This document shows positions 40,194 through 42,823 of a stretch of 64,000 bases of DNA, in pieces; positions within the stretch are counted from its first letter, which is position 1; every line of letters begins with the position of its first letter. The translations under genes were made by a program, and so were the position numbers. The stretch comes from Nocardioides sp. YIM 152315 (lineage in GTDB: Bacteria > Actinomycetota > Actinomycetes > Propionibacteriales > Nocardioidaceae): contig NZ_JARGER010000015.1 of NCBI RefSeq assembly GCF_029210375.1, positions 62,001 through 126,000 on the forward strand. Direction: 5' to 3'. The notes beneath the pieces are model-generated. The model was not told where the DNA came from and did no database searches. It saw only the letters and a program-made list of their open reading frames with translations.

Positions 40194-41822
40194 TCAGGCC
40201 GTGTAGACGGACGTTCCGTCGATCCAGGTCGAGACCACTCGAGCGCCGCCGATGTCGTCGGCCGAGCCCGCGAACGGGTCGCGGTCGAGGACCACCAGGT
40301 CCGCGACCGCGCCCGCGCGGAGGACGCCCGCGCTCTGCTCGTCCCCGGGGCCACGACGGTTGATCCACGCGCTCCCCGAGGTGTACGCCGCGAACGCCGA
40401 CTCGAGCGCGATCGCCTGCTCGGGCAGGAAGCGGTCCCGGCCGGCCCGGCCGCCCTCGCCGTACGCCGTGCGGTTGACCGCGACGTGGATCGCCTCGAGC
40501 GGGTGGGGCGTGCTGACCGGCCAGTCACTGCCGGCGACCAGCCGCGCGCCGTGCCGCTCGAGGTCGCCGAAGGGGTACTGCCACCGGGCGCGCTCCTCCC
40601 CCAGGAACGGCAGCGTGAGGTCGATCATCTGCTCGTCGTAGCACGCCCACAGCATCTGCAGGTTGGCCGCGACGCCGAGCGCGCCGAAGCGCGGCAGGTC
40701 GTCGGGGTGCACGACCTGGAGGTGCGCGATGTGATGACGGCGGTCCCGGTCGGTGCCCTCGAACGCGTCGAGCGCCTCCCGCGCGCCGCGGTCGCCGATC
40801 GCGTGCACGTGCACCTGGAAGCCCTCGGCGTCGAGGCGCGCGACGTAGCGTCGCAGCGCGTCGGGGTCGACGAACGAGTGGCCGGCGTTCTCGGTCGTGT
40901 GGCCGCAGCGGTCGAGGTAGGGCGCGGTCAGCGCCGCGGTGAAGTTCTCGGCGACGCCGTCCTGCATGATCTTCACGCTCGTCGCGCGGAACTGGCCGTG
41001 GGTGTACCGCTCGCGCCGCTCGACCAGGTCGCCGACCTGCTCCTCGCCGCGGGTGCGGTCCCACCACAGGGCGCCGACGACGTGGGCGGAGAGGTCCCCC
41101 TCGCGCGCCGCGCGGAGGTACGTCGGGCCGGGGTCGTCCATGCCGGCGTAGGCGCCGACGATCGCGTCCTGCCATCCGGTCACGCCGACGGAGTGGAGGT
41201 GGCGCTGCCCCTCGAGGAGCGCGGCGTAGTACTCGTCGTCGGTGGTCTGCGGGGTCAGCCGGGCGACGGCGTGCATCGCGCCCTCGTGGAGCGTGCCGGT
41301 CAGGCGGCCCTCGCCGTCGCGCTCGAAGCGGCCGTCCGCGGGGTCGGGCGTGTGCCGGTCGACGCCGGCGAGCTCGAGCGCGCGGCTGTTGACCCACGCG
41401 CCGTGGTGGTCGCGGTTGGGCAGGAACACCGGTCGGTCGGGCACGACCCGGTCGAGGTCCGCAGCGGTCGGTGTGCCGCCCGGGAACGCCGCCATCGCCC
41501 AGCCCCCGCCGAGGATCCACTCGCGGTCGGGGTGCGCGTCGGCGTACTCCGCGACGATCCGCAGGTAGTCGTCGCGGCTCTCGCCCTCGGTGAGGTCGCA
41601 GCGGATGCGCTCGAGCCCGCCCTGCACCGCGTGCACGTGCGCGTCGACGAACCCGGGGCCGAGGAACGGCACGTCGACCACGGTGGTTGAGGAAGGGCGA
41701 AGTCCTGTCTCGAAACCACCGGGCTGGACCGCGGCGATCCGCCCGTCCTCCACGAGCACGTCGGCGCGCCCGACGTACCGGTGCCCGTCGAAGACCGTGC
41801 CACCACGGAACAGCGTGGTCAT
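40194..41822 (-). CDS. YtcJ-like metal-dependent amidohydrolase
   Basis: A 542-residue amidohydrolase. Metal motifs: GFVDAHVHAVQGG (HxH), VHVHAIGDRG, IAHLQVVHPDD, and the Asp in VAGSDWPVS. The family acts on N-acyl or amide bonds; the true substrate is unknown, but a guanidino or acyl-polyamine is plausible here. Start ATG 41822 overlaps the ureohydrolase TGA by one base. Residues about 36-48 (FETGLRPSSTTV) are encoded by a 39-bp inverted-repeat element that keeps the frame. Confidence 0.85.
   Translation of the reverse strand: MTTLFRGGTVFDGHRYVGRADVLVEDGRIAAVQPGGFETGLRPSSTTVVDVPFLGPGFVDAHVHAVQGGLERIRCDLTEGESRDDYLRIVAEYADAHPDREWILGGGWAMAAFPGGTPTAADLDRVVPDRPVFLPNRDHHGAWVNSRALELAGVDRHTPDPADGRFERDGEGRLTGTLHEGAMHAVARLTPQTTDDEYYAALLEGQRHLHSVGVTGWQDAIVGAYAGMDDPGPTYLRAAREGDLSAHVVGALWWDRTRGEEQVGDLVERRERYTHGQFRATSVKIMQDGVAENFTAALTAPYLDRCGHTTENAGHSFVDPDALRRYVARLDAEGFQVHVHAIGDRGAREALDAFEGTDRDRRHHIAHLQVVHPDDLPRFGALGVAANLQMLWACYDEQMIDLTLPFLGEERARWQYPFGDLERHGARLVAGSDWPVSTPHPLEAIHVAVNRTAYGEGGRAGRDRFLPEQAIALESAFAAYTSGSAWINRRGPGDEQSAGVLRAGAVADLVVLDRDPFAGSADDIGGARVVSTWIDGTSVYTA
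41682..41720. repeat. 39-bp REP-like element inside a coding region
   Basis: GGTGGTTGAGGAAGGGCGAA and the rest of this 39-base stretch have inverted ends GGTGGTT and AACCACC. The length is exactly 13 codons, and it lies in frame in the amidohydrolase gene, between the beta-strand of the N-terminal composite domain and the VVDV strand. I recall this sequence type as a common dispersed repeat in Nocardioides-like genomes. Confidence 0.6.
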
Positions 41823-42823
41823 CAGCGTCCTTCCAGCAGCGGGCCCGCGGGGTCGTGGGAGATCCCGTGCTTGCGGGCGGCCAGGCCGGAGAGCGCCTCG
41901 AGGCAGACCCGGTTGGCGAGGAAGGCGGTGATCTCGGCGTGGTCGTACGGCGGGGAGACCTCGACGACGTCGATGCCGGCGACGGGCAGCTCGCGGCAGA
42001 TGCGGCGTACGGCGTCGAGGAGCTGCCGGCTCGACAGGCCGCCCGGCTCCGGCGTGCCCGTGCCCGGCGCGTGGCCGGGGTCGCACACGTCGATGTCGAC
42101 CGAGAGGAAGACGGCGTCGCAGTCGTCGAGCGCGATCTCGAACGCCTCGTCGAGGCATGCCTCCAGGCCGCGCTTGCCGATCTCGGTCATCTCGTAGGAG
42201 CGCATGCCCTGCTCGGCCATCCACCCCAGCGTCTCGGGACCGGGCCAGTAGCCGCGCAGGCCCATCTGGAGGAAGCGGTCGCCGCGCAGCGCGCCCGACT
42301 CGATCAGCCGGCGCATCGGCTGGCCGTGACCGTAGAGCGAGCCGAACTCGATGTCGCCGGTGTCGGCATGCGCGTCGAAGTGGATCATCGAGACTCGGCC
42401 GAAGCCGTGGTGGCGGGCGACGCCCGTGGCGTCGGGCAGCGCGATGGAGTGGTCGCCACCGAGCACCAGCGGGATCGCGCCGGCGCGGGCCACGGCGTGG
42501 ACCGCCTCCTCGAGAGCGCCCAGCGAACGCTCGATCTCTCCGGGCGGCATCTCCACGTCGCCGGCGTCGACCACGACCACGTCCCGCAGCGCGTCGACCC
42601 GGAGCGCGAGGTGCGGACGCGAGCCGTCGTGCGGCAGGTAGTCGGTCTGCCGGATCGCCATCGGGCCGAAGCGGGTCCCGGGGCGGTGCGACGTGCCGCC
42701 GTCGAAGGGAGCGCCGACCACGACGACGTCCGCCGCGGCGAGGGCCTCGTCATCGTCGAGGTCGACGCGCTCGACGCCGAGGAAGGTGACGTCGGGTCCG
42801 AACTGCGGTCCATACCGGGTCAT
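41822..42823 (-). CDS. Agmatinase/guanidino-acid ureohydrolase
   Basis: A 333-residue ureohydrolase of the agmatinase family. Manganese ligands are present: GGDHSIALPD, HFDAHADTG and SVDIDVCDPGHAPGTGTPEPGG. It cleaves a guanidino group to release urea and an amine: agmatine to putrescine, or guanidinobutyrate to GABA. The family alone does not tell which. It is upstream of and coupled to the amidohydrolase gene, and divergent from the aminotransferase gene. Confidence 0.9.
   Translation of the reverse strand: MTRYGPQFGPDVTFLGVERVDLDDDEALAAADVVVVGAPFDGGTSHRPGTRFGPMAIRQTDYLPHDGSRPHLALRVDALRDVVVVDAGDVEMPPGEIERSLGALEEAVHAVARAGAIPLVLGGDHSIALPDATGVARHHGFGRVSMIHFDAHADTGDIEFGSLYGHGQPMRRLIESGALRGDRFLQMGLRGYWPGPETLGWMAEQGMRSYEMTEIGKRGLEACLDEAFEIALDDCDAVFLSVDIDVCDPGHAPGTGTPEPGGLSSRQLLDAVRRICRELPVAGIDVVEVSPPYDHAEITAFLANRVCLEALSGLAARKHGISHDPAGPLLEGR

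Follow-up and report, generated by a model that had tools for sequence, protein, structure and literature searches.

The window analysed here, a 64-kb stretch of Nocardioides DNA, carries on its minus strand an amidohydrolase gene at 40194–41822, encoding 542 amino acids (Amidohydro_3, Pfam PF07969, 293 bits against a cut-off of 29.7), and upstream of it an agmatinase gene at 41822–42823 (minus strand; TIGR01230, 185 bits against a cut-off of 174.3). Inside the amidohydrolase gene, at 41682–41720, lies a REP-like palindrome of 39 bases that reads GGTGGTTGAGGAAGGGCGAAGTCCTGTCTCGAAACCACC on the plus strand, with arms GGTGGTT/AACCACC, a core of the AGGAC/GTCCT type with one change and, at 41681, the conserved outer C of the repeat. 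On the minus strand this palindrome has a stop-free frame and provides 13 in-frame codons for residues 35–47 (GGFETGLRPSSTT), as an earlier sequence-only reading of this DNA had pointed out; we infer translation of these residues from the open frame. The DNA is predicted to fold well on both strands (plus strand, z of -2.9 with 0 of 200 shuffles folding equally well; minus strand, z of -2.6 with 4 of 200), and no second copy of the repeat was found within the 64-kb window. Two Rfam matches, nhaA-II at 41737–41807 (28.9 bits against a threshold of 70.4) and mir-339 (20.3 against 60), were taken as chance.

The agmatinase stop codon and the amidohydrolase ATG overlap by one base at 41822, which supports this ATG as the amidohydrolase start. 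A full agmatinase gene adjoins the amidohydrolase orthologue in eight of the 12 relatives listed; it is missing from the locus in L043, L047 and L057, where the DNA on both sides is retained, and is shortened in L045. An alternative start at the GTG directly after the repeat would leave the repeat untranslated as a 5' regulatory hairpin, and Di Nocera et al. (PMC3733652) caution that REPs near N termini may be such a case. We regard this reading as extremely improbable in view of the overlapping ATG, of residues upstream of the repeat that are alike among the genus orthologues listed, and of upstream strands that are modelled at a pLDDT of 93–95.

These strands belong to an AlphaFold model that was built from the window protein and 22 orthologues (mean pLDDT 93.4). 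Residues 35–46 are modelled as a loop between a strand of residues 28–34 (41721–41741, minus strand) and a strand of residues 47–50 (41673–41684, minus strand), the first residue of which is also the final residue that the repeat encodes; pLDDT is about 80 in residue blocks 31–40 and 41–50. Two uncharacterised hydrolases from Pyrococcus (3igh and 3icj) have the closest solved folds, and the named-genome orthologues matching the window protein best are from Nocardioides. The loop at the repeat site varies in length among orthologues, so that the earlier statement that the family runs straight from the loop into the VVDV strand was only partly right. Residues 1–32 (41727–41822) have a match of only 0.59–0.66 to the closest relatives (L043–L046), but of 0.84 to L057 and 0.78 to L054, unlike the remainder of the protein, which is nearest to L043–L046. 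Since the N-terminal part has other nearest relatives than the rest, recombination near the loop may have occurred and may have brought the loop along.

The repeat is dispersed through the genome, as the sequence-only reading had stated for related genomes and had proposed to check by a genome-wide search. At up to three mismatches, the window repeat has 11 copies in the whole genome (4.82 Mb in 50 contigs; reversed control 0), and the wider pattern GGTTGAG-N8-30-TCTCGAAACC has 74 (control 0). Across the genus, a search pattern covering the two core types matched in 123 of 215 genomes; copy numbers ranged from 0 to 414 per genome, and there was no control match in the genomes listed. The 74 copies have common arms and variable cores, the two halves of which vary in concert (AGGAC/GTCCT, GGGAC/GTCCC, GGTTG/CAACC), and this paired change indicates that a hairpin has been kept. 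Immediately outside the left arm all 74 copies have a C, and 44 of the 74 have a G at the other end; the flanks beyond this outer C and G are mixed, and the 74 copies have no GTAG or CGTC end tag. Copies are often close together: as judged by eye, 21 of the 74 have a neighbour no more than 120 bases away and form ten clusters, of which seven show an inverted order. Elements of this genome are 39–42 bases long as a rule; among the 73 measured, length is divisible by three in 60 and five of the six frames are stop-free in 64. REPs are generally defined as short palindromes with a common consensus and many copies, mostly outside genes, and this is what we find in these 74 hairpin-forming copies, nine of which are in frame within coding ORFs; the remaining 65 are not so placed and are presumably mostly intergenic. 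Repeat copies open several of the contigs (C11:34, C25:55, C31:24, C32:66, C38:14, C42:37 and C49:141), and therefore the assembly is probably broken at repeats and the genome count may miss some.

Orthologues of the amidohydrolase were sought in 196 and then in 215 genomes, with the second search reporting only matches better than 1e-225. We read 86 genus orthologues, a set that omits G027, partial matches in G166, G025, G180 and G070, and more distant homologues, and scored the loop DNA of each against five REP consensuses and 100 codon shuffles. Repeat DNA was present in the loop of nine orthologues, in three core types and with one degenerate copy, and was lacking from 77. Eight carriers scored from 25.5 to 37 and the degenerate one (L044, of genome G182) 16, whereas the other 77 loops reached 13 at most; all nine carriers outscored every one of their own 100 shuffles. 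The best-fitting core was of type 1a in the window and G145, of type 1c in G202 and of type 2 in G190, G066, G212, G156, G032 and the degenerate G182. A relaxed pattern applied to the 86 loci detected no further REP apart from five similar matches (L197, L199, L214, L046 and L067), which we read as chance matches to a conserved coding stretch. Among 80 named-genome orthologues from many actinobacterial genera, in at least four of which (L087, L120, L124 and L129) the alignment starts inside or after the loop and leaves it uncovered, the best score was 20.5 (L086, a Nocardioides MAG) and the next 13.5. None of these 80 was seen to have the same residues in a distant genus encoded by other DNA, the finding that the sequence-only reading had named as contrary to its view of a repeat that became protein. 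The dispersal of the repeat and the lack of repeat DNA in 77 of the 86 orthologous loops, the outcomes of the two checks it had suggested, support that view. The loop of L086 contains a diverged REP-like stretch in another frame and three tandem copies of a 10-residue unit, DAPPQGPVGR, which seems to have started from this diverged REP.

Presence of the repeat in the loop was then compared with a gene tree built on the protein sequence C-terminal to the loop. At least six state changes are needed on this tree, while randomly shuffled labels need a mean of 8.7 and reach six or fewer in only 2 of 1000 cases, indicating clustering of presence beyond chance. Thus some of the presence pattern is inherited, which makes it uncertain how many arrivals were separate; besides inheritance, the repeat must have arrived repeatedly, been lost, or both. 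A single ancient insertion into the loop, inherited through the genus with many losses and with cores that diverged by gene conversion via the common arms, would account for this clustering. It would also explain the outer arms common to both core types, and the equal distance between the repeat and its flanking motifs in the window, G156 and G032 despite their different core types. A single gain would, however, require 15 losses in place of six unconstrained changes, and repeat-free loops are similar in distant lineages (GRELGEADD in L046, GRDLGPSDE in L050), as would be the case if the unfilled state were old. We therefore consider a single ancient insertion unlikely.

Carriers of the repeat generally have REP-rich genomes. 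The median genome copy number was 91 for carriers and 1 for the others (one-sided p of 6e-5, for genomes that are related and not independent, and with carrier counts that may include the loop copy itself, i.e. one extra); two carriers, G156 and G032, are copy-poor, with 3 and 5 pattern copies per genome. This enrichment, which is what supply alone predicts, bears on whether the residues improve the enzyme, for instance through subunit contacts, such that selection favours repeats in the loop. Several lineages have kept a repeat there, as such selection would lead one to expect, but 77 of 86 orthologues lack it, the sister pairs L048/L050, L234/L184 and L044/L046 each consist of one sequence with the repeat and one without, and loop sequences have decayed freely, for example in L044 and L056. 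An adaptive insert thus appears very unlikely. The repeat residues are most likely a tolerated filler with no specific catalytic role, which is also the simplest reading of the peptide.

The amidohydrolase is one of nine genes in which a copy of the repeat lies in frame. This count of 9 of the 74 copies comes from a codon-usage test of both flanks using only the nearest 70 codons; a first scoring gave seven, to which the 70-codon scoring adds the window gene (L001) and L170 (left side weak, at 9 bits). L161 and L163 appeared with whole-ORF scoring only, had frames that were weak on one or both sides, and were dropped. By Pfam, the products are the amidohydrolase of the window (PF07969), a radical SAM/CofH_C protein that we take to be FO synthase (CofGH), hydantoinase A, an EcoEI_R_C protein, an SpoU rRNA methylase, a 2-oxoacid dehydrogenase acyltransferase, a glucoamylase-like protein (left side weak), a chelatase-type AAA/VWA protein and CobN. 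Six copies are read in frame r1 (GGFETG..PSSTT) and three enter frame f2 (VVEEG..); the chance of nine out of nine in two given frames is 0.4^9, about 0.0003, if the five open frames are equal, in what is a post hoc calculation. Other frames are used at times in relatives (r2 in CofGH of G212, another in L086). CofGH and hydantoinase A of the window genome each contain two repeats in inverted order that are read through. Two linkers of this genome seem to have been expanded from REP units: that of the E2 protein L155, with three consecutive VVEEGA.. units, and that of the chelatase-type protein L179, with GGFETGASAPSSTT followed by partial copies.

For four of the nine genes (amidohydrolase, CofGH, CobN and hydantoinase A) we compared orthologues, and repeat-free ones exist in every case. 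The last three were sought in 20 relatives picked by their amidohydrolase, and the resulting fractions are not genus-wide. The CofGH linker was filled in 7 of 17 genes read, with six changes on the CofGH tree; the fills are of type 1 in the window genome, G190, G066 and G202, of type 2 in G212 and G009, and of another palindrome in G102. The CobN loop was filled in 2 of 12 (the window genome and G066) and hydantoinase A in 5 of 20 genes (the window genome, G066, G202, G156 and G212), with the G202 repeat identified from the DNA at the corresponding place and the G212 loop reading GGFEARSARTSTT. The hydantoinase A loop of G032 (L274) contains a different palindrome, GAGTCGGGAGTTCTGG..CCCGACTCGACC, which has one to three copies in three of eight genomes, too few for a family.

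Comparison with repeat-free relatives indicates that the repeat mostly replaces loop residues and that clean insertion of 13 residues may be the exception. The sequence-only reading had proposed the addition of 13 residues without breaking the frame; the frame is open, but the net gain is smaller, as the window protein has 65 residues up to the DAHVH motif and L046 has 61, a difference of four. In pairwise alignments, loops with a single repeat exceed their repeat-free counterparts by a net 5 to 12 residues. For the amidohydrolase, these alignments cover three of seven pairs, the window gene not being among them, with loop lengths with and without the repeat of 43 and 35 (L048), 39 and 32 (L054), and 45 and 36 (L234). 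Corresponding lengths are 46 and 41 (G066/G182), 46 and 41 (G202/G099), and 50 and 45 (G009/G177) for CofGH, and 40 and 32 (G066/G182) for CobN. In CofGH of the window genome, the two repeats together account for a gain of 23 residues. CobN of the window genome, at 43 residues against 31 in G038, is near to a clean insertion and counts against replacement as a rule. As divergence is high, insertion followed by trimming and one-step replacement are indistinguishable. The earlier reading had missed this predominance of replacement, the different core types in the loop of several species and the filling of eight other genes.

Our preferred explanation, which we consider highly probable, is that a copy of a dispersed Nocardioides REP-like element landed in an exposed, length-variable loop of the amidohydrolase gene, displaced part of the loop and today encodes 13 loop residues like any others. 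The elements would be moved or copied in trans by some activity, and copies in coding DNA would persist only at sites where they leave the frame open and are tolerated by the protein. This family would be suited to such a fate, with lengths mostly divisible by three and five of six frames open, and the frames used (GGFETG..PSSTT and VVEEG..PVSKP) are hydrophilic and linker-like. The same few tolerant loops would therefore be refilled in different species. As to the mover, a RAYT is not supported: Y1_Tnp (RAYT family, PF01797) was found in none of nine genomes, while the same search matched 5 of 14 control genomes. A Mutator-type transposase (PF00872), tried as a guess, is present in four of eight REP-rich genomes and is missing from G182, G201, G202 and G095, and so does not stand out as the mover. 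More tentatively, and with rather low confidence, some Nocardioides loops (those of the amidohydrolase, CobN and hydantoinase A, and the FO synthase linker) could be standing REP landing sites at which different core types keep arriving and replace or convert one another. If so, a palindromic family without a known transposase would constitute a renewable supply of linker peptides, with sites perhaps guided by a DNA feature beyond protein tolerance.

These loops provide a countable natural experiment in the conversion of non-coding mobile DNA to protein. The genus spans 0 to 414 pattern copies per genome, and these loops occur in unfilled, newly filled and decayed states, such that the rate, frame choice and fate of these insertions could be measured. 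Protein-coding REPs are hereby extended to an actinobacterial genus in which a search of nine genomes turned up no REP transposase, with the added result that the loops of the amidohydrolase and other enzymes hold different kinds of repeat in different species.

Rickettsia palindromic elements (RPE), reportedly described by Ogata in 2002 and by Claverie and Ogata in 2003, are said to be translated in frame inside unrelated proteins, in loops or linkers. The Nocardioides repeats resemble them as a dispersed palindrome that is in frame in nine unrelated proteins, here on sequence evidence, and likewise in loops and linkers. They differ in sequence and organism, and in being 39–42 bases long as a rule, whereas the main RPE are longer. 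In REP/RAYT systems, REPINs consist of short palindromes that are often close together, mostly as inverted pairs; close and mostly inverted pairs also occur here, with whole pairs in frame in CofGH and hydantoinase A, but these systems have a RAYT, for which the Y1_Tnp search of nine genomes was negative. Among open-access papers, judged by titles and the opening of abstracts, we found none on REPs of Nocardioides. RepRanger (2025) catalogues REPs of some Actinomycetota, and the word Nocardioides is absent from the accessible part of that article (PMC12306157). A further close parallel comes from the GTAG- and CGTC-tagged REPs of several species which, according to Di Nocera et al. (2013; PMC3733652), are short palindromes, mostly intergenic with some intra-ORF, occurring singly or as dimers, the CGTC class being said to lack a dedicated transposase; neither Nocardioides nor Actinobacteria appears in the main text of that paper. 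The same source describes different REPs at approximately the same site in recB of X. campestris and X. oryzae. The Nocardioides repeats are similar in being short palindromes, some inside ORFs, and in this occupation of one site by different elements; unlike those REPs they have no GTAG or CGTC end tag, and unlike recB, as far as that account goes, the filling of the same site is seen in four genes of one genus. In-frame REPs are already known from Rickettsia and other bacteria, and the filled loops of Nocardioides are a variant of that kind.
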